From a virus: a DNA stretch of 43,770 nucleotides. The translations under genes and the position numbers were made by a program. Positions within the stretch are counted from its first letter, which is position 1. Each line of letters opens with the position of its first letter. Positions 5,505 through 39,458 of the stretch are shown in pieces. A model generated the notes under the pieces. The model had not been told where the DNA came from, did not search any database, and worked only from the letters and a program-made list of their open reading frames with translations. The DNA lies in IMG/VR virus record IMGVR_UViG_3300042090_001989, positions 1 to 43,770 of that record; one strand, given 5' to 3'.

Positions 5505-5538
5505 TGGCGGAGAGGGTGGGATTCGAACCCTCTCCGCC
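5505..5538 (-). other. attachment site: 3' end of a tRNA-Ser-type gene, with a 12-bp inverted repeat
   Basis: Read on the minus strand this gives a T-loop TTCGAAT (5521-5527), T-stem 3' strand CCCAC, acceptor 3' strand CCTCTCC, discriminator G and CCA ending at 5505. That is the 3' end of a bacterial serine tRNA gene. The sequence further 5' on that strand (positions above 5538) does not form the rest of a tRNA. The T-stem 5' strand has one mismatch with the 3' strand (A opposite A), so the exchange point probably lies in or near the T-loop and the conserved core is about 5505-5527. The segment is also a perfect inverted repeat: 5506-5517 against 5527-5538 with a 9-base loop. Confidence 0.65.
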
Positions 5539-6386: not shown

Positions 6387-7133
6387 ATGAAAGCGGAAGC
6401 TATAGAAAAAATCCTCTCGCTCGGCGTGCCGAATCAAATTCCGAAAGACGGGAAGCTCTACGTCGACAAGATCATGCACGTCATCGCGCCGGAAGTGCCG
6501 GACGCGCTCGCGTGCTCGACGCTGCAGGGCCTGGTGGACTTGCTGAACGGCAACCTCGAGGACGTGAAGGCGTCGGTCGATGTGCTGGTGCAGATTGAGT
6601 CACCGACGCGGGTGTCGCTGGTGGGCCGGAAGTCCGACGAATTCGGCCGCCGCCAGGTCTACGCGACGGCTGAATACCCGAGGGCGTGCAACGCGTTTCC
6701 TTTCGGGGTGTGGCACAACCCGGAAAACTTTCTCATCGCGTGCCAGATGGGTTTTCAGCGCGTGATGATCCAAAGCGATGACGGCAGCTATGCGAAGGAT
6801 CTGGACTACGTGATTCGCGCGGCGTCGAACATCGCGGCGGAGTCCGGCGTCACGAATGCCGACGACGGCATCGCGCAGCGCGTGGAGATGCGGCAAGGCG
6901 TGGTGCTGAAGGGCGAGACGACGCTGACGCCGCGGGTGAACCTCGCGCCGTACCGGACGTTTGCCGAAATCGACCAGGTGATTTCGACGTTCATCTTCCG
7001 GGCGCGTCCGAATGGAAACGCTGTGACGCTCGCTCTCTTCGAAGGCGACGGCGGACGATGGCGTCTCTCGGCAACGGCCGCAATCAAGGCGTGGCTCTCA
7101 GCACAAATCACGGGGAGCCCGATCATCTCGTGA
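6387..7133 (+). CDS. DUF2303 family (YfdQ-like) phage protein
   Basis: 248 residues from ATG at 6387 with AAGGAG upstream. The sequence fits DUF2303, found in many prophages including YfdQ of E. coli: an N-terminal part ending LQGLVDLLNGN, a central SVDVLVQIESPTRVSLVG, then YPRACNAFPFGVWHNPENFLIACQ-type motifs and a C-terminal FIFRARPNGNAVTLALFEGD. The length matches the family. Its biochemical role is unknown; it usually sits with recombination or replication genes. The stop codon overlaps the GTG start of the integrase (GTGA), so the two are translationally coupled. Confidence 0.8.
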   Translation: MKAEAIEKILSLGVPNQIPKDGKLYVDKIMHVIAPEVPDALACSTLQGLVDLLNGNLEDVKASVDVLVQIESPTRVSLVGRKSDEFGRRQVYATAEYPRACNAFPFGVWHNPENFLIACQMGFQRVMIQSDDGSYAKDLDYVIRAASNIAAESGVTNADDGIAQRVEMRQGVVLKGETTLTPRVNLAPYRTFAEIDQVISTFIFRARPNGNAVTLALFEGDGGRWRLSATAAIKAWLSAQITGSPIIS

Positions 7134-8152
7134 CAAAAATCCCCGGCATATTCGAGCGGCCGCCGAACTCCGGCGTGTTCTGGATTTCCTACACCGACAC
7201 CGACGGCAATCGCCGGCGGGAGAAGGCGGGGAAACACGCGGCGGCGCTCGATTTGCTGGGCCAGCGCAGGGCGCAGGTCAAGAAGAACGAATACATCGCA
7301 CCGCGGCAGAAACGGGTCTGGACATTCCGGCGGCTCGCCGCGGAGACGATCAAAAACAAAGCGCTGCGCCTCGAAGCGCTCACAGTCGAGACCGACGAGT
7401 ACCGCTTGGTGGCACTGCTCCCGCTCATCGGCCATGTGCGTTTCGACCGGCTCACGTCGGAACGCATCGCCGAAACTCTTGCAACGCTCCGTCAGTCCGG
7501 GCTCTCGACGTCGACGTGCAACCGCTACCGCTCGTTCATGAGCAGCTGCTTTACCTACGCGATGAAGATCAACCGTGCAGCGTCGAATCCCGTGGCGCGC
7601 GTCGAGCGCTTCAAGGAGAACGATCCGCGCGTGCGCTGGCTGCGGCCGGACGAAGAGGCGCGGATCCGCAAAGCGTTTGTGGCCGACTCGCACGAGTGGG
7701 AATTCGATCTGGCGCTCTATACCGGAATGCGCCGCGGCGAGCAGTTCGGCTTGCTGTGGAAGAACTGCGATCTGGGTCGCGGGATTTTGACGGCGAAGGG
7801 CAAGACCGGACGCCGGCACGTCATTGCGAATGAGGACGCCGTCTCCGCGCTTGGCAAGCTTCAGAAAATTTCCGGCGAGCGAGACTTCGTCTGTCCGGAC
7901 AACGACGGAACGATGAAGCGGGACTCGCGCACCTGGCTCGAGGAAGCCGTAGGCGAGGCCGACGTCCAGGACTTTCACTGGCACGATCTCCGGCACACGT
8001 TCGCCTCGCGCTTGGCGATGGGCGGCGTCGACATTCGCACCATCCAGGAGCTCCTCGGGCACAAGTCCATTTTGATGACGATGAAGTACGCGCATCTTTC
8101 GAGCGATCACCGCCAGAAAGCGGTCGCGAAAATAAAACCGGAGACGCCGTGA
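7130..8152 (+). CDS. int: Phage tyrosine integrase
   Basis: 340 residues. The start is set to GTG 7130, which overlaps the DUF2303 stop as GTGA; the frame is open further upstream but that would overlap DUF2303 by 75 bases. Order: a short N-terminal arm-binding region, a SAM-like core-binding domain (about 65-160), then the catalytic domain with Arg201 (TGMRRGEQFG), a likely beta-hairpin Lys225 (TAKGKTG), His285/Arg288 (HDLRHTF), His311 (LLGHKS) and nucleophile Tyr320 (MKYAHLS). All active-site residues are present. It should act on the tRNA attachment site about 1.6 kb to the left. The location within the early operon rather than at the very edge is slightly unusual. Confidence 0.93.
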   Translation: MTKIPGIFERPPNSGVFWISYTDTDGNRRREKAGKHAAALDLLGQRRAQVKKNEYIAPRQKRVWTFRRLAAETIKNKALRLEALTVETDEYRLVALLPLIGHVRFDRLTSERIAETLATLRQSGLSTSTCNRYRSFMSSCFTYAMKINRAASNPVARVERFKENDPRVRWLRPDEEARIRKAFVADSHEWEFDLALYTGMRRGEQFGLLWKNCDLGRGILTAKGKTGRRHVIANEDAVSALGKLQKISGERDFVCPDNDGTMKRDSRTWLEEAVGEADVQDFHWHDLRHTFASRLAMGGVDIRTIQELLGHKSILMTMKYAHLSSDHRQKAVAKIKPETP

Positions 8153-9923: not shown

Positions 9924-10126
9924 TGGCGAACATCGTGGTCGACCTGAGCAACGAAGCCGCGCGCGTGAGAGCGTTGCTCCCTCAGCTGGACGTGCGAAAT
10001 CGCGCCGAAGCGGAGCGGTCGCTTCGCTTCGCGGAGCGCGCGCTGCAGCAGCCGAACCTCGGCGAAATGTACGAATCTCTCGAAGAACTTCAGGCGATCG
10101 ACGCCAAGAGAGGCCAACGTCCATGA
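9923..10126 (+). CDS. Small helical phage protein
   Basis: 67 residues beginning at ATG 9923, which shares bases with the previous stop (TGATG). Helices AARVRALLPQL and EAERSLRFAERALQQ suggest a short helical hairpin. No family recognised. The stop overlaps the next ATG, so it is part of the same coupled operon. Confidence 0.55.
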   Translation: MANIVVDLSNEAARVRALLPQLDVRNRAEAERSLRFAERALQQPNLGEMYESLEELQAIDAKRGQRP

Positions 10127-10761
10127 ACGAAACCCGCTACCCGCTGTGCTGGCCGGCGAACTGGAAACGCACGACGAGCCGAGCGTCGGCGACATTTTCC
10201 AAGACTTCACACCGCGACGATGCGACGGGAGGCTACGTCGGAAGATCAAAGCTCTCAGTGCCGGCGGCGGTCGAGCGCATTTCCGTGGAACTCTTTCGCA
10301 TGGGGATCAAGGAAGAGGGAGTCATCGTCTCGACGAACGTAGCACTGAATCTGTCCGGCGGTCCTCGAGGCGATCGCGGCGAGCCATCGGATCCCGGCGT
10401 CGCCGTCTACTGGACGCGAAACGGCAAGTCACAATGCATTGCGATCGACCGATACAGGCGTGTCGCCGATAACCTTGCGGCTGTTGCTGCCACACTCCTT
10501 GCGCTCCGCGCGATCGAACGTCACGGGGGCGGTTCGATTCTCGACCGCGCGTTCATCGGTTTCGCCGCTCTGCCGGCTGCGCCCGTGGACTGGCGCGCTG
10601 TTCTATGCATTCACCCGCAAACGAACGTCACGCAGGAAATTATCGAAAACGCTTTCCGCGTTCTCGCGGTCCGCCGTCATCCCGACAAGGGCGGCACGCA
10701 CGACATGATGGCGGAATTGAACGCGGCGCGCGCTGAAGCGCTTAGGGAAAATCGCTGGTGA
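10123..10761 (+). CDS. Phage protein with C-terminal J domain
   Basis: 212 residues; ATGA overlap at 10123. The last about 50 residues form a J-domain end: VTQEIIENAFRVLAVRRHPD, with the HPD motif at 186-188 followed by KGG and a helix (HDMMAELNAARAEAL). J domains stimulate Hsp70 (DnaK) ATPase. The first about 155 residues have strands VAVYWTRNG and CIAIDRYRRVADNLAAVAATL and are not recognised. Such phage co-chaperones may recruit host DnaK for replication-complex disassembly, as lambda P does through DnaJ; that is an inference, but it fits the location next to the replication gene. Confidence 0.7.
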   Translation: MNETRYPLCWPANWKRTTSRASATFSKTSHRDDATGGYVGRSKLSVPAAVERISVELFRMGIKEEGVIVSTNVALNLSGGPRGDRGEPSDPGVAVYWTRNGKSQCIAIDRYRRVADNLAAVAATLLALRAIERHGGGSILDRAFIGFAALPAAPVDWRAVLCIHPQTNVTQEIIENAFRVLAVRRHPDKGGTHDMMAELNAARAEALRENRW

Positions 10762-11258
10762 CGCAGACGTACCCATTCCCGTGGCAGTTCGACCCGGCGC
10801 GCTATTCGGATATGTACCTGATGGGCCAGGTCACCGAGACTCAGGTGCAAAAGTCGATTGTTTCGTTTCTCCGCGCGCTGCTCGTCGACGTCGTACCCAT
10901 CGACGCCGGCGGCCGGCGTCAGCGCGGGCGGATGATCGGCGCCGCGAAAGCTGCAGGCGTCAATCTCGCCGGCGTGCAACACGCAAAGACGGGCGCCGCG
11001 ATCCCGGCTGGGTTCGCGGACCTCGAGGCCACGCTCGCTCCGAACGGCCGCGCGCTCTACATCGAAGTGAAAGCGCCGGCGTGGCGTGACGTCGACGGCA
11101 CCGTGATTCGTTCGTGTGGCAGCCCGTCGGGTGACCAGCTGCGGTTTCTGCTCGCCAAACACAAGCGCGGCGCTCTCGTCCTCGTGGCGTGGAGTTCAGA
11201 GGACGTCGAGAAGTTCTGTTTCGCCGACCTCGACCGCAATCTCAGGGCGCTGCGATGA
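10758..11258 (+). CDS. VRR-NUC domain nuclease
   Basis: 166 residues from GTG 10758 (GTGA overlap). It has the VRR-NUC layout of PD-(D/E)xK nucleases: helix TETQVQKSIVSFLRAL, then PAGFADLEA with Asp88, then ALYIEVKAP with Glu103 and Lys105, then a PSGDQLRFLLAKHKRG helix with Gln127 and the final strand ALVLVAWS. Stand-alone phage VRR-NUC proteins of this size are thought to resolve branched DNA before packaging. It lies between the J-domain protein and the replication protein. Confidence 0.82.
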   Translation: MTQTYPFPWQFDPARYSDMYLMGQVTETQVQKSIVSFLRALLVDVVPIDAGGRRQRGRMIGAAKAAGVNLAGVQHAKTGAAIPAGFADLEATLAPNGRALYIEVKAPAWRDVDGTVIRSCGSPSGDQLRFLLAKHKRGALVLVAWSSEDVEKFCFADLDRNLRALR

Positions 11259-11869
11259 CCGCCAATCGCTATGTGGCGGTCCAGCCGTCCCGCGTTAACG
11301 GCCGTAAACAAATCGGTCCGGCGTCCTACCTCGAGGACTTCCTCGTGGATCACCAGACCGACGCCGCCGGCAGCGTGTTTTACGGTAAGGCGATCAGCTA
11401 CGCGTGGATCCGGTCGAAATGGAAAGACGCGCCGCCGATCCGCACGCTGGAACGGCACATGGCTCGCTTGAAAGCTGCAGGACGCGTCCTCGTTCACCGG
11501 CTCACCTGGGGGCACGGGATGGTAGTGCGCGTACTCGGTTCGGTGAAATGGTCCGAGACGCCGCAGCAGCTCCCGCTTTTCCCAGCGCCGGCCGTGGTGC
11601 GGATCGCTGTTCCGGCTCCGGAGGTGGTGTTGATATCCGGTGCAAAACCTCTGAGTAAGCTGTCGAAACCGCAAACTCTCATACCGCCAAAAGTGGCGGT
11701 GATATACCGCCACTTTTGGCGGTTTAAAGAAGTTAAGAATCTAAGAAAGGAAACAACATACGGCGCTTCGCGCCCACCGGCGCGCGCCAGTCCTGTGGAA
11801 AACCTCGACGACCCCGTGCTCTCAGCCGAAATCGAAACGCTGCTACGAAAATTCAAAAGCGCTGGCTAG
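11255..11869 (+). CDS. Winged-helix phage replication protein (putative initiator)
   Basis: 204 residues from ATG 11255 (ATGA overlap). The N-terminal 80 residues contain a helix-turn-helix: SVFYGKAISYAWIRSKWKD, then IRTLERHMARLKAAGRV and the wing VLVHRLTWGHG. The middle is a Pro/Ala linker and the C-terminus a short helix (AEIETLLRKFKS). This resembles phage replication-initiator N-terminal domains that bind iterons, but the assignment rests on fold pattern and place. The gene itself carries a large nested palindrome followed by AT-rich DNA, as lambda O carries the lambda origin, which supports the replication call. Confidence 0.55.
   Translation: MTANRYVAVQPSRVNGRKQIGPASYLEDFLVDHQTDAAGSVFYGKAISYAWIRSKWKDAPPIRTLERHMARLKAAGRVLVHRLTWGHGMVVRVLGSVKWSETPQQLPLFPAPAVVRIAVPAPEVVLISGAKPLSKLSKPQTLIPPKVAVIYRHFWRFKEVKNLRKETTYGASRPPARASPVENLDDPVLSAEIETLLRKFKSAG
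11683..11723. repeat. Nested palindrome, candidate phage origin
   Basis: Two 18-base units, ACCGCCAAAAGTGGCGGT (11683-11700) and its exact reverse complement (11706-11723), are separated by GATAT. Each unit is itself a palindrome with 7-bp arms and a 4-base loop, so the site holds four ACCGCCA arms. It is followed at once by AT-rich DNA (about 11724-11760), a visible contrast in a GC-rich region. Inside a coding sequence such perfect symmetry is not needed for protein function. An initiator-binding site with an adjacent unwinding element is the simplest reading. Confidence 0.5.
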
Positions 11870-11883
11870 AGGAAAGGCACCCC

Positions 11884-12300
11884 ATGGACTGGATTGCCAA
11901 TCGGGAGCTCGAGAGGCAGTGGATAGAACAGGCGAGGCAACAGCGGCTCGCTGCACTCAAATCGCCGGAGGATGCTCTAAGGTTTCGCGTCGAGTTCGGC
12001 GCGCGGCTGTCCGATCACAAAAGAGTGTTCGCCGTTAGGAGGAATGCATGGGAAACACAACTCGCATCGAATGGACCGATTCCACCTGGAACCCCATCCG
12101 GGGATGCTCCCGCGTCAGCGAAGGCTGTCGGAACTGCTACGCCGAAGCCATCGCCGCGCGTTTCAGCAAAACCGGTCAGGCGTATGAAGGCCTCGCGACG
12201 CTCAAAGGCCTTGACGCGCGCTGGACGGGCGAGGTGCGCCTCATCGAAACGCATCTCGAGGACCCGATCCGCTGGAGGAAGCCGCGTAAAATCTTCGTAA
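11884..12300 (+). CDS. Short helical protein; 3' half overlaps next gene
   Basis: ATG 11884 follows GAGGAAAGG, a good ribosome site. The first about 55 residues are helical and charged (NRELERQWIEQARQQRLAAL, then EDALRFRVEFGARL) and look like real protein. From about 12048 the frame overlaps the DUF5131 gene in another frame and becomes Ala/Ser/Arg-rich, like a shadow. The stop is at 12298-12300, so a 138-residue product would be made if the gene is expressed. It may be real with an accidental tail, or a disrupted shorter gene. Function unknown. Confidence 0.4.
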   Translation: MDWIANRELERQWIEQARQQRLAALKSPEDALRFRVEFGARLSDHKRVFAVRRNAWETQLASNGPIPPGTPSGDAPASAKAVGTATPKPSPRVSAKPVRRMKASRRSKALTRAGRARCASSKRISRTRSAGGSRVKSS

Positions 12301-12884
12301 ACTCCATGAGCGATCTCTTTCACCCGGGCGTCAAAGACGAATGGCTCACGGAGATCTTCTCGGTCATGGCACGAGCTCCGCGGCACATCTACCAGATCCT
12401 CACAAAACGACCTGAGCGAATGCTGGAAGCGCTCACCGCCGGCGCGGAATCCGTCGCCGCAGCACTCTTCACAAACACTTTCGGACAGCCGTGGCCGCCG
12501 CTCAACTGGTGGTTTGGTGTCAGTGTCGAAGACCACGAGACCGCGACTCACAGACTGCCGATCCTCGCGAAGTGTCCCGCGTTCGTTCGTTTCGTCAGCT
12601 ACGAGCCCGCACTCGGTCCCGTGCACTGGGAATCGGCGCTCACTCTCCAAGAGCAGCGATCCGCGATCTCGTGGATCATCGCCGGCGGTGAATCAGGAAC
12701 CAACGCACGGCGGATGCATCCAGACTGGGCGCGTTCTGCGAGGCAGTTCTGCAACGACAACCACATCGCATTTTTCTTTAAGCAATGGGGCGAATTCCAT
12801 CCGAACGAAATCGCCAAAGTCGGCAAAAAGAAAGCCGGCTCCGTGCTCGACGGCGTCGAGTGGAGAGACTTTCCGCCGTGCTGA
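12048..12884 (+). CDS. Phage Gp37/Gp68 family protein (DUF5131)
   Basis: 278 residues; TTAGGAGG just before ATG 12048. Family hallmarks: TRIEWTDSTWNPIRGCSRVS, then Cys20, Cys27 and Cys30 (C-x6-C-x2-C), IFVNSMSDLFHPGV, ILTKRPERM, NWWFGVSVED, FVSYEPALGP, WIIAGGESG and FFKQWGEF. This is a radical-SAM-like fold widespread in phages, with no established substrate. Length and motifs are complete. The three-Cys cluster is consistent with an Fe-S centre, which is inference. It may modify a nucleotide or nucleic acid. Confidence 0.88.
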   Translation: MGNTTRIEWTDSTWNPIRGCSRVSEGCRNCYAEAIAARFSKTGQAYEGLATLKGLDARWTGEVRLIETHLEDPIRWRKPRKIFVNSMSDLFHPGVKDEWLTEIFSVMARAPRHIYQILTKRPERMLEALTAGAESVAAALFTNTFGQPWPPLNWWFGVSVEDHETATHRLPILAKCPAFVRFVSYEPALGPVHWESALTLQEQRSAISWIIAGGESGTNARRMHPDWARSARQFCNDNHIAFFFKQWGEFHPNEIAKVGKKKAGSVLDGVEWRDFPPC

Positions 12885-13147
12885 ACCTCTTCGTCGCGGT
12901 TTCGTTCATCGTGTTCGTGCTCGCTCTGCCGCTCTCCAAAAGCTGGAAGGACACTATGATCTGGGTGATTCAGTACACCGCACTTCCCCCTTGCTGGATT
13001 AGGGAACACGGCGACAACACCGTGGTGCTCGACGTCACGTTCCAGCGGAAATTCGCAAAAACCTTCACATCCTGCGAGGACGCGCGACACGAAATGCTCC
13101 GGCTCGGATTGACGACTACGTCGTGGCTCGCGGTGAACGTCGAATGA
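12878..13147 (+). CDS. Small membrane-anchored protein
   Basis: 89 residues from GTG 12878, just inside the end of DUF5131. An N-terminal membrane helix (VLNLFVAVSFIVFVLALPL) is followed by a short soluble domain with CWIREHGD and FTSCEDARHEMLRLGL. No family recognised. The longer frame starting at 12785 lies inside DUF5131 and is highly basic, so I prefer the GTG. Confidence 0.5.
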   Translation: MLNLFVAVSFIVFVLALPLSKSWKDTMIWVIQYTALPPCWIREHGDNTVVLDVTFQRKFAKTFTSCEDARHEMLRLGLTTTSWLAVNVE

Positions 13148-13782
13148 AAATCAGCGTCGATATCGACACCGAGCAAGTGGTGAAACTCACCGCAGCCGTG
13201 CTTCGCCAGCTGCCGTATGCCACAAACAACGCGATCACGCGCACCGCGAAGGAAGCGGTCGACGCCGGCCAGAAAGAAATCGCCGCAGACCTGCAGCTCC
13301 GCAAGAAGTTCCTTTTGAACCGCATTCGCATCCTGCAGTACTCGAAAATCGGAAATCTGACAGCGGTGATCGGCGTCGACACCAAAGTCCAGGGCGCGCC
13401 GCTCATTCTCGGTTTCCTCGAGGATGGCGGCACAAAAGAACCTATTCGCGGTCCTGAAATTGCGATTCCGCTCACTGGCGAAGCCGCGCGGCCGTCGTTT
13501 TCTGAATCCGTCATCACGGCAATGCGCTACACAAATTTGCGCTTCCAAAACCTGAAAGGCCGAAAGAGGACTTTCATCATTCCGAACGTCGGCATCTTTC
13601 AGCGTGTCGCTGCAGGCGATTCGCCCGATTCCACCGTGCTGATCTACTCGTTCAAGCCATCGGCGAAACTGCCGCAACACATCCATTTGCGCGACGCGAT
13701 GTTGAAAGTGATCGGTGAACGGTTCGCTCCGATCTTTTCTGAGGAGTTCACGAACGAGATTCTGAAGAAGGCGCGGCGCTGA
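13144..13782 (+). CDS. Minor tail protein Z-like (GpZ) protein
   Basis: 212 residues; ATG 13144 overlaps the previous stop. The pattern (LRQLPYATNNAITRTAKEAV, then a helix, strands around AVIGVDTKV, a long helix with RFAPIFSEEFTNEIL at the end) resembles lambda GpZ-type minor tail proteins, which act at the head-tail joining end. Length is near the family's usual 190-220. In lambda Z lies between FII and U; here the gene sits before the terminase, far from the other tail genes. The call is moderate and another structural role is possible. Confidence 0.5.
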   Translation: MKISVDIDTEQVVKLTAAVLRQLPYATNNAITRTAKEAVDAGQKEIAADLQLRKKFLLNRIRILQYSKIGNLTAVIGVDTKVQGAPLILGFLEDGGTKEPIRGPEIAIPLTGEAARPSFSESVITAMRYTNLRFQNLKGRKRTFIIPNVGIFQRVAAGDSPDSTVLIYSFKPSAKLPQHIHLRDAMLKVIGERFAPIFSEEFTNEILKKARR

Positions 13783-13791
13783 GTGACTCTT

Positions 13792-14088
13792 TCAGGACAA
13801 AGCAGGATTGTTGCCTCGAAACGGCATTTCGTGGATACAGCCGAACTCGGAAGGCCGCGATTCGCAGCTCGGGCAAAACGGAACGATCACTTTCACAACT
13901 TGTCCGCCGCCGGCGCAGATGTCTCGGAATCTCGCGTCATGAACCGAGATGAAGGCATCGATGATTTCGATAGGAGTGTTGCAGCTAGTGCACCGCTGGA
14001 GTTCGCCATCGGTGTGGCAGTGCTTCTCGATCCACTTCTGGCGCGCAATCGCGAACTCTGCGAGCGACGTCATGGAAGGCGTTTTCAT
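13792..14088 (-). CDS. Minus-strand zinc-ribbon-like protein
   Basis: 98 residues if it starts at 14088 (MKTPSMTSLAEFAIARQ). Two CxxC knuckles, RCTSCNTPIE and PFCPSCESRP, flank a helical/strand stretch (IIDAFISVHDARFRDICAG), a convincing zinc-ribbon layout, and the amino-acid mix is better than in the opposite frame. No strong ribosome site is seen. It would be transcribed against the phage operon and convergent with it at 13782. Function unknown; it may be a lysogenic-phase gene. Confidence 0.5.
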   Translation of the reverse strand: MKTPSMTSLAEFAIARQKWIEKHCHTDGELQRCTSCNTPIEIIDAFISVHDARFRDICAGGGQVVKVIVPFCPSCESRPSEFGCIHEMPFRGNNPALS

Positions 14089-36617: not shown

Positions 36618-39458
36618 TTGCTGTTCGTCGCGACAACCGTAGTAGGCGTTCTGCTCGCTCCGCATCCCCGCGGGCCGCAGCCATCGGCGCTCGGGGATTT
36701 CTCCGTTCCGACGGCCGAGGAAGGCCGCGCGATCCCGGTGGTCTTCGGGACCTGCATGATCAAGGGCGGGAACACGGTTTGGTGGGGCGATTTGAAGAGC
36801 GTCGCGGTGAAGACCGGTGGCGGCATCCTCGAGCTATTCCGCACCCAGGTGAGCGGGTTCAAGTATTACCTCGGCTGCCAATTCATGCTTTGCCACGGTC
36901 CGGTCGACGCGCTGGTCGAGATTCAGGCGGATGTAAAGAACATCCCGAACACCACGGCGGTCATCGACAACGGCGACGGCAGCGAGAACTACATCGAAGT
37001 CACGGCCAACGGACCGAATCTTTTCGGCGGCACGGGTCCGGGCGGCGGCGGCGGGATCTCCGGAATCATCAACTTCTACCGCGGCCTCCAGACGCAGCAG
37101 CCGGACGACTACCTCAGCGCGAAGCAGGGGCGCATCGTAGCGGACCAGTCCGGAATCGGCGACGACTTCCACGGCGTGGGAAACGGCACGATCACTTCCC
37201 TCTCGGCCGGCAGCCGCTCGCTCGATGAAACCTTCACGATCACCGCCGCCGGCATTGACGGAAACGCGACGCACTCGACCTACGGAAAAATGCGCTTCAC
37301 CGTGATCGGTACCGTCTCGGGCGCCCTGGTGAACACCACGTACAACTCCGACGGCTCGAACGCGTGCTGGGCGGACCAGGCCTTTTCCTGCTCGCGGATC
37401 AATCTCACGATCGCGACGGGCGCGACGCAGTTCGCAAACGGCGATTACTTCACCATCGTCACCGCACACGCGACCGTCGCGTCGGCCTATCGCGGAAAGT
37501 GTTTCGCCGTTTTCAAGCAGCTGTATGTCGGAACGTCGAACTACCTGAAGCCGCTTGCGTTCGTTGTGCGGCGCTGTCCGGATCCGCTCGCGCAGGGCGC
37601 CGGCGTCGCGAACATCGCGGGCGACGCGAACCCCGCGCTCGCGATCTATGAATGCCTCACGAGTGTCGACTACGGCCTCGGGATCCCTGCGATCCGAATG
37701 AACGCGTCGAGTTTTGAAGCCGCGGCGGTGACTCTCGCGACCGAAGGTCTCGGGATCTCGATGATGTTCGACACCCAGGCGAGCGCCGACCAGCTCATCG
37801 GCGAAGTGCTCCGCCATTGCGATGGCTTGCTGTATACGGACCCGGCGACCGGGCTCTGGACGATCGTGCTCGCGCGCGGCGGCTACGATCCGACAACGCT
37901 CCCCGTGCTCACCGTCGATAGCGTTATCGCGACGCCGGATTTCTCCCGCGGCTCGTGGGAAGAGACGACCAATCTCATCAACATCCGGTATACATCGCGC
38001 GGGGCGAATTTCGACGACCGCACCATCCGGGCCTACGATGCCGCGAACTTCGCCGTCACGGGCGAGGTGCGGCCGCAGACCATCGACTTCAAAGGACTGA
38101 GTTCAGAAGCCGCGGCGGGCCTCGTGGCCATTCGCGTTTTGAAAACGTTCACGTATCCGCTTGGGAAGATCAAGCTGGTAGCGAACCGCACCGCCTGGCA
38201 GTTCCGTCCTGGAGGACTCTTTCGCTTTACATGGGTTCCGCTTGGCGTGGTGGACCAGGTGTTTCGCATCACGCGCATCGCCTACGGCGAACTCACCGAC
38301 GGAAAAATCTCGATCGACGCGGTCGAAGACATTTTCGGAATCAACAGCGCGGCGTTTGTCGCGCCGCCGGCGTCGGGATGGGTGAACCCCCTAGGCGGCG
38401 CGACGCCGTGTTCGGCCGAGCAGCTCGTCGAGCTCCCCTACTGGATCCAGCAGAGCGAGGCGCTCGCGGCCGGCATCTACGCGATGGCAATGGCGGGGCG
38501 CGATCCGGCGGTCAACGAGAAGTCTTTCGAGATATGGCTCAACCCCGGTAGCGGCTTTGCGGACTCCGGGCTGGCCTCGAGTTTCTGTCCCGTGGGCACG
38601 CTCAACGCTGCTTATCCCGCGAGTGTTCCGGCTTTCGATTCGACAGGCTTTGTTTTGGCTGCGACGGGGGGCGCCGACCTCGACGACCTCGCACCGGCGT
38701 CCGCTATCGATTTCGCGAACGGCGTCAATCTCTGCATGGTCGACGCCGAGATCATGGCCTGGACGACGCCGACCGAGAATGCCGACGGCACTTATTCGAT
38801 CGCCGGCGTCGCGCGCGGCTTGCTCGACACGGTACCGGCCGATCATGCAATGGGCGCGCAGGTGTTTTTCTTTTCCCATGGGGCGAACGTGACGCAGGCG
38901 ACGCCGTATCCGTCGGACCTCACGGTGACGGCGCGCTTCACTCCGAACTCCGCCATCGACCAGCTCGCGGTGTCCTCGGCGTCCGATGTGACGCTCACGA
39001 CGCGTTCGCGGAGCGCGCGGCCGTACCCTCCCGGAAACATCAGCGTCAACGGGCAGGCGTACGGCGTTCGGCCGGCGATGACTCTCGGCGATCTCACGGT
39101 CACTTGGAAATCGCGGAACCGGCTCACGCAAGTTCTCACGGTCCAGCAGGACGCCGGCGACGTCACGGGCGAGGACGGCCAGTTCTTCACCGTTCAGAAA
39201 AAAATCGCCGGGACGGCCGTCGGAGCTCCGATCAACGTCGGGGCGGACGAAACGTTCACCTACACGGCGGCCGCGCGCGGCGCGGACGATCCCGACTTCA
39301 CGAAGCTCACGACACTGGAGATCTCCTCGAACGTCGGAGCGCTGGCCAGCTATTTTCCGCAGGTGGTCTCGACGACGATGTTTGGAACGGCCACGACGCT
39401 CCCATCGCCGGGACGCTATGAATTTCCCGCAGTCTCGGTCGGAGGCCTTTACCTGTGA
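36618..39458 (+). CDS. Large tail tip/host-contact protein
   Basis: 946 residues as listed from TTG 36618. A hydrophobic start (FVATTVVGVLLAP) is followed by SALGDFSVPTAEEGRAIPVVFGTCMIKG and WWGDLKS, motifs of the central tail tip proteins of Gram-negative siphophages (lambda J analogues), an insert with Gly-rich and beta regions, then ADQLIGEVLRHCDGLLYTDPATGLW, EVRPQTIDFKGLSSEAAA, and a C-terminal fibronectin-like part. No ATG or GTG lies in the correct frame: stop TGA at 36588 and no standard start until TTG 36618, although hydrophobic codons continue upstream to 36597. GGTGAGGTG at 36586-36594 would fit an unusual start near 36597. Confidence 0.72.
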   Translation: MLFVATTVVGVLLAPHPRGPQPSALGDFSVPTAEEGRAIPVVFGTCMIKGGNTVWWGDLKSVAVKTGGGILELFRTQVSGFKYYLGCQFMLCHGPVDALVEIQADVKNIPNTTAVIDNGDGSENYIEVTANGPNLFGGTGPGGGGGISGIINFYRGLQTQQPDDYLSAKQGRIVADQSGIGDDFHGVGNGTITSLSAGSRSLDETFTITAAGIDGNATHSTYGKMRFTVIGTVSGALVNTTYNSDGSNACWADQAFSCSRINLTIATGATQFANGDYFTIVTAHATVASAYRGKCFAVFKQLYVGTSNYLKPLAFVVRRCPDPLAQGAGVANIAGDANPALAIYECLTSVDYGLGIPAIRMNASSFEAAAVTLATEGLGISMMFDTQASADQLIGEVLRHCDGLLYTDPATGLWTIVLARGGYDPTTLPVLTVDSVIATPDFSRGSWEETTNLINIRYTSRGANFDDRTIRAYDAANFAVTGEVRPQTIDFKGLSSEAAAGLVAIRVLKTFTYPLGKIKLVANRTAWQFRPGGLFRFTWVPLGVVDQVFRITRIAYGELTDGKISIDAVEDIFGINSAAFVAPPASGWVNPLGGATPCSAEQLVELPYWIQQSEALAAGIYAMAMAGRDPAVNEKSFEIWLNPGSGFADSGLASSFCPVGTLNAAYPASVPAFDSTGFVLAATGGADLDDLAPASAIDFANGVNLCMVDAEIMAWTTPTENADGTYSIAGVARGLLDTVPADHAMGAQVFFFSHGANVTQATPYPSDLTVTARFTPNSAIDQLAVSSASDVTLTTRSRSARPYPPGNISVNGQAYGVRPAMTLGDLTVTWKSRNRLTQVLTVQQDAGDVTGEDGQFFTVQKKIAGTAVGAPINVGADETFTYTAAARGADDPDFTKLTTLEISSNVGALASYFPQVVSTTMFGTATTLPSPGRYEFPAVSVGGLYL

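Follow-up and report, generated by a model that had tools for sequence, protein, structure and literature searches.

Why should a long, perfect palindrome lie wholly inside a protein-coding gene? The question is raised by positions 11683-11723 of the 43,770-bp IMG/VR virus record analysed here (the window), which fall within the gene for a protein that we label P0001. An earlier note on this DNA had likened the region to an origin made up of iterons plus an unwinding element, placed in the initiator gene as in phage lambda. The comparisons reported below support that reading, in that the layout is kept in homologs and the geometry fits that of the lambda iterons. We consider, at a probability of about 85%, that the region is a phage replication origin of the lambda plan in a minimal, in-gene form with two iterons, and that the gene product is its initiator.

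The palindrome and the gene that contains it

The region consists of two 18-nt arms that are 100% complementary and are separated by the 5-nt spacer gatat (Table 1). Each arm is itself a perfect 7-4-7 dyad, so that ACCGCCA occurs four times in alternating orientation, and the start spacing of the two dyads is 23 bp. This 18-5-18 repeat is the longest perfect inverted repeat in the window at spacers of up to 10 nt, the runner-up having arms of 12 nt. The 41-bp palindrome as a whole exists only because this phage has one dyad copy inverted, as is visible in the dyad centres. The nested perfect palindrome described in the earlier note was therefore borne out, as was its symmetric count of four ACCGCCA arms, but the repeating unit is an 18-bp dyad present twice rather than four free arms. 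The note had also held that the symmetry is stronger than coding needs, and this too stood: arms reached at most 12 nt in 500 synonymous recodings of P0001 with phage codon usage, whereas the observed arms are 18 nt. Two perfect 7-4-7 dyads arose in 92 of 20,000 synonymous recodings, a null that is generous because the dyads helped write the amino-acid sequence of P0001. The symmetry of the palindrome is not forced by protein coding.

Table 1. Positions of P0001, its dyads and neighbouring features in the window
Feature	Position	Strand	Basis and remarks
phrog_9210 neighbour, HPDKGG motif	10123..10761	+	phrog_9210 E 3e-40; DnaJ E 0.004, below cut-off; conserved in L004
Endonuclease-like neighbour	10758..11258	+	phrog_93 E 8e-9; gene order same in L004
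P0001 gene, proposed replication initiator, 204 aa	11255..11869	+	ORF; winged helix, disordered linker and C-terminal helix (AlphaFold)
Predicted recognition helix, codons 62-74 (IRTLERHMARLKA)	11438..11476	+	AlphaFold; residue 66 covaries with positions 2 and 3 of the half-site
E66 codon; R67 codon	11450-11452; 11453-11455	+	In predicted recognition helix
Iteron 1	11683..11700	+	ACCGCCA-AAAG-TGGCGGT, perfect dyad
Iteron 2	11706..11723	+	ACCGCCA-CTTT-TGGCGGT, perfect dyad, inverted relative to iteron 1
AT-rich tract, proposed unwinding element	11724..11763	+	70% AT; contains AAAGAAGTTAAGAA
C-terminal helix, codons 187-202	11813..11860	+	AlphaFold

The AT-rich tract that the note had placed after the arms was confirmed in the 40 bp past the second dyad; the gene ahead of the dyads is 38% AT, and fewer than 0.05% of the 40-bp stretches of the window reach the AT level of the tract. 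AAAGAAGTTAAGAA or close variants recur after the second copy in several relatives, in different reading frames. Two extra ACCGCCA arms (11258-11264 and 11274-11280, spacing 9) flank the P0001 start codon. The right arm of this pair encodes a conserved Y-V-A-V stretch, no arm pair was evident at the gene starts of those relatives that were read, and we treat the pair as a coincidence.

P0001 has no Pfam or PHROG match of its own. Fold searches gave no decisive match, the structures returned being repressors of the winged-helix type and HTH proteins of phages; the weak PDB neighbours include ArsR- and Fur-type repressors and TubR. AlphaFold without an alignment gave a mean pLDDT of only 33, and the model used was made from an alignment with 17 homologs. 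Residues 12-100 of that model are confident (block pLDDT 79-97 across residues 11-90), with predicted helices 12-20, 23-32, 49-55 and 62-74 and strands 78-82 and 89-93 forming a winged helix. Residues 120-183 are of low confidence, and the dyad-encoded residues fall inside this stretch, which is predicted to be a disordered linker ahead of the C-terminal helix. As modeled, P0001 follows the general plan of winged-helix phage replication initiators, namely an N-terminal winged helix, a disordered linker and a C-terminal part. At a guess, the C-terminal helix contacts a helicase loader or helicase.

The phrog_9210 protein encoded two genes upstream of the initiator has a C-terminal J-domain-like stretch containing HPDKGG. 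Host DnaJ is required for lambda replication, and a phage-borne J-domain adjoining the initiator may be more than chance. The genes downstream of P0001 (11884-12300 and 12048-12884) gave a weak match to phrog_15405, and DUF5131. None of the genes tested was recognised as a lambda P-like helicase loader, and none of the window genes tested as a helicase, primase or polymerase; the lack of the latter matches fits a phage that depends on its host, but the evidence is weak, because many proteins of this phage match nothing.

Conservation of the dyads among relatives

As a lone query P0001 retrieved no relatives from viral contigs, phages or plasmids. A single relative, L005, was found in genome contigs, in an Acidobacteria MAG, with 54% identity in the best segment. 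A profile seeded with L005 and with four dyad-carrying contigs that have a visibly homologous gene (L004, L013, L016 and L025) was searched by protein conservation alone and recovered 18 viral loci, with two dyads at the same gene position. With near-duplicates left out, 16 clear homologs (viral or MAG loci) remained besides the window, and all 16 have the two dyads at that position. The same position occupied by a different arm sequence in related phages, a check suggested in the earlier note, was thus found in 16 of 16, with arms that compensate one another. The start spacing is 23 bp in 14 of 17 members (window included), 22 bp in L039, 24 bp in L045 and 33 bp in L053, the last corresponding to one extra helical turn. 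AT-rich DNA follows the second copy in every clear homolog (55-70% AT where the dyads were automatically placed). The dyads themselves are varied, with GCCA..TGGC cores and outer ACC, CCC, GGG or CCG, more divergent arms such as CCGTCCA (L047), GGGGCAA (L051) and GGTGACA (L053), and mixed GACA/GCCA halves (L043 and L048). They are degenerate in two more distant homologs, L086 and L094.

In L039, L053, L054, L055 and L086 the initiator frame closes 12-21 bp past the second dyad and lacks the C-terminal helix, which may reflect a real truncation, a split gene or a frameshift. The locus L003 was rejected as a relative: its double ACCGCCAGAAATGGCGGT dyad (L003 807-850) lies between two structural genes, outside any initiator, and is possibly a terminator or another use of the same dyad. 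No further family member was found in 396 genomes of the MAG's phylum, where the dyad pattern occurs in a single extra place, in a contig fragment that has no phage gene. Matches to phages by short-DNA blastn were at chance level only.

The arms are under selection as DNA. Arm cells are paired in 90.3% of cases, compared with 70.2 ± 2.3% in shuffles, and arm covariation is 0.453 compared with 0.122, with none of 500 shuffles as high; the covariation is lost when the partner is slid by 1-3 columns. The two copies within a phage match at 13.1 of 14 arm positions, the copies of different phages at 9.3. Where a dyad has asymmetric mismatches (L005, L043, L048 and L049) these are present in both copies, which points to one protein reading its site twice and not to a hairpin. 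Every reading frame is used across the copies, with phases 2 and 0 represented for the first and all three phases for the second, and the peptides encoded vary among relatives. Since the arms change together and the copies occur in all three frames, selection acts on the DNA and not on the peptide.

A protein-blind scan for the GCCAAAANTGGC dyad occurring twice within 30 bp matched 33 viral contigs. Ten carriers with intact HTH-type genes were chosen from outside the family, and each of them matched a PHROG family of replication initiators or helicase loaders (10/10; the L034 protein contained a one-letter error, and some start residues were set to M). Other scan matches look unrelated, being tail-fibre-like or low-complexity repeats (L012, L015, L021 and L029), and because several are of this kind the dyad pattern alone is no proof. 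Several members of phrog_270, phrog_7498, phrog_428 and phrog_678 (replication-initiation and DnaD-like helicase-loader families) have in-gene GCCAAAANTGGC dyads like those of the window. Most of these proteins differ from P0001 in that their C-terminal domains are longer and their dyads often number three or more, and P0001 itself gave no match to them. Members of the P0001 family match replication PHROGs weakly (7498, 270 and 428; best E 0.0015). The earlier term "replication gene" rests on these comparisons, because the gene itself has no family match.

Covariation of the recognition helix with the dyad arms

Mutual information was calculated in 19 phages for each of 128 protein columns paired with each of the seven half-site positions. 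Residue 66, midway along the predicted recognition helix, was the top column for half-site position 2 (z 6.5); for position 3 it came second (z 5.7), after the dyad-encoded residue 144. Most of the other top columns for these positions are dyad-encoded residues, outside which residue 66 is the best predictor of position 3. For residue 67 the ranks were second at position 6 and third at position 4. A Glu or Gln at residue 66 goes with C at half-site position 3, Lys with GG or GT, and Arg with CG. Two relatives were found after this rule was formed: L094, with degenerate dyads, conforms to it, and L086 breaks it, having Gln with CGG/GGT halves. Helix and site both differ in the close pairs L046 (R, CCGGCCA) and L048 (E, CCCGACA), L038 (E, CCGCCA) and L040 (K, GGGGCCA), and L041 (Q, CCCGCCA) and L047 (R, CCGTCCA).

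Parsimony on the tree requires at least 6 changes of EQ/KR residue class and at least 7 of base class. A pair test on well-supported branches yielded 3 independent pairs, concordant or not differing, which are too few for significance, and phylogeny is therefore controlled mainly through the other columns, which share the same tree. Among distant carriers, with residues assigned by rule, Glu or Gln occurred with C in 5/5 and other residues in 3/10 (Fisher p 0.026); this test is only supportive, because the rule chose the wrong frame or register in L008, L009, L014 and L036.

The covariation of residue 66 with the arms supports the view that P0001 recognises the iterons. We give somewhat less than an even chance to a broader code, in which the recognition-helix residue that follows R-T-L (E/Q, K or R) would set the outer bases of the iteron arm (C, GG/GT or CG, respectively) and be predictive across families without other detectable homology. 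If this code were true, the origin sequence and cross-compatibility of such phages would be predictable from the protein alone. No paper on the dyad motif or the residue code was found in the open-access literature.

Comparison with lambda and alternative readings

In the lambda record, 18-bp iterons begin at 39034, 39054, 39078 and 39101 within gene O, giving start spacings of 20, 24 and 23 bp, and the AT tract after them is 78% AT. The window resembles ori-lambda in its 18-bp iterons of inverted-repeat character, their A-tract centre, a regular spacing within 20-24 bp, their location in the initiator gene and an adjacent AT tract on the 3' side (PMC3349717, PMC7466680). O proteins act as dimers on imperfect inverted repeats (PMC7466680). 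Work cited in PMC7466680 puts the minimal lambda unwinding fragment at two iterons plus the AT tract, the same elements that the window family carries. The Stx phage origins (P27 and 933W) likewise combine in-gene iterons and an AT tract with dimeric O proteins (PMC7466680) but have six iterons, of lambda-type sequence, and an O-family protein. The window differs from ori-lambda in having two iterons rather than four, dyads that are more nearly perfect and have GCCA..TGGC type arms, one inverted copy and no recognised lambda P-like neighbour. Profile comparison of P0001 with lambda O using hhalign gave a probability of 0.5%, that is, no detectable homology, and there was no O-like PHROG match and no P-type helicase loader downstream. 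By analogy, the site would work like ori-lambda, with an initiator whose sequence does not place it in the lambda O family.

Among the alternatives, the one that survives best, although we consider it improbable, is that the dyads are an operator through which P0001 regulates its own gene or operon rather than the start of replication. A winged helix and dyads would fit a repressor, as would the weakly scoring ArsR- and Fur-type PDB neighbours. However, the sites lie ~140 codons into the gene, no promoter-like match was found at 10000-13000, the AT-rich tract follows the dyads in every clear homolog, and the ten other dyad-carrying genes match replication-initiation or helicase-loader families.

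Function as mRNA hairpins, in an attenuator, a terminator or translational control, is less probable again. A role in RNA would not account for the fixed 23-bp spacing, asymmetric mismatches retained in both copies are expected of protein sites, and neither a terminator-like site nor an Rfam match was found at the dyads. Each unit could form a 7-bp hairpin, and compensatory changes would appear identical in that case, but G-T accounts for just 2 of 22 non-Watson-Crick arm pairs, so that wobble pairing shows no sign of being tolerated.

Dyad pairs are common in centromere-like and recombination systems, and the presence of TubR among the fold neighbours might suggest a site of this kind for another protein. 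We find this a little harder still to credit, since the covariation points at the gene's own recognition helix and the same dyads in other families belong to replication initiators. That the symmetry is a by-product of a conserved peptide repeat has almost no chance of being correct: PPKVA- or QKW-like peptides do recur in many members, but the 22- or 23-bp spacing sets the copies in different frames, such frame changes contradict the reading, and the same kind of dyad encodes PPKVA, RQKWR, TAKSGG or GDRCV in a stretch predicted to be disordered.

We therefore favor a replication origin of the lambda plan. A winged-helix dimer of P0001 would bind each 18-bp dyad with one recognition helix per half-site, residue 66 contacting the outer arm bases at positions 2-3. 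Two dimers 23 bp apart, about two helical turns, would lie in phase and could together build a small protein-DNA assembly that assists strand opening in the AT-rich tract immediately downstream. The host helicase would be loaded there. The dyads can sit inside the gene because the disordered linker that they encode tolerates almost any peptide. On this model the origin would be located to about 80 bp in a group of uncultivated phages, and the lambda plan would recur, in a minimal two-site form, in a protein family for which no homology to lambda O is detectable. The paired changes of helix and site seen among close relatives would be natural specificity switches, and they bear on the joint change of origin and initiator where the origin must also encode protein.

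The earlier note had further suggested cumulative GC skew as a check. Its maximum does lie near 10-12 kb, but near 11-12 kb (window 10001-14000) the skew turns from positive to negative, the reverse of what is conventionally expected at an origin, and it is uninformative here. The source phage is of temperate type and its host probably a soil bacterium; the soil and Acidobacteria link is drawn because one MAG contig carries the relative L005. A palindrome with 12-nt arms, GGCGGAGAGGGTGGGATTCGAACCCTCTCCGCC at 5506-5538, lies near the integrase gene (7058-8152) and resembles the end of a tRNA T-arm. ARAGORN found no whole tRNA there, and the palindrome is a possible attP core. A small gene at 6002-6349 matches phrog_997, "replication terminator" (E 2e-22).
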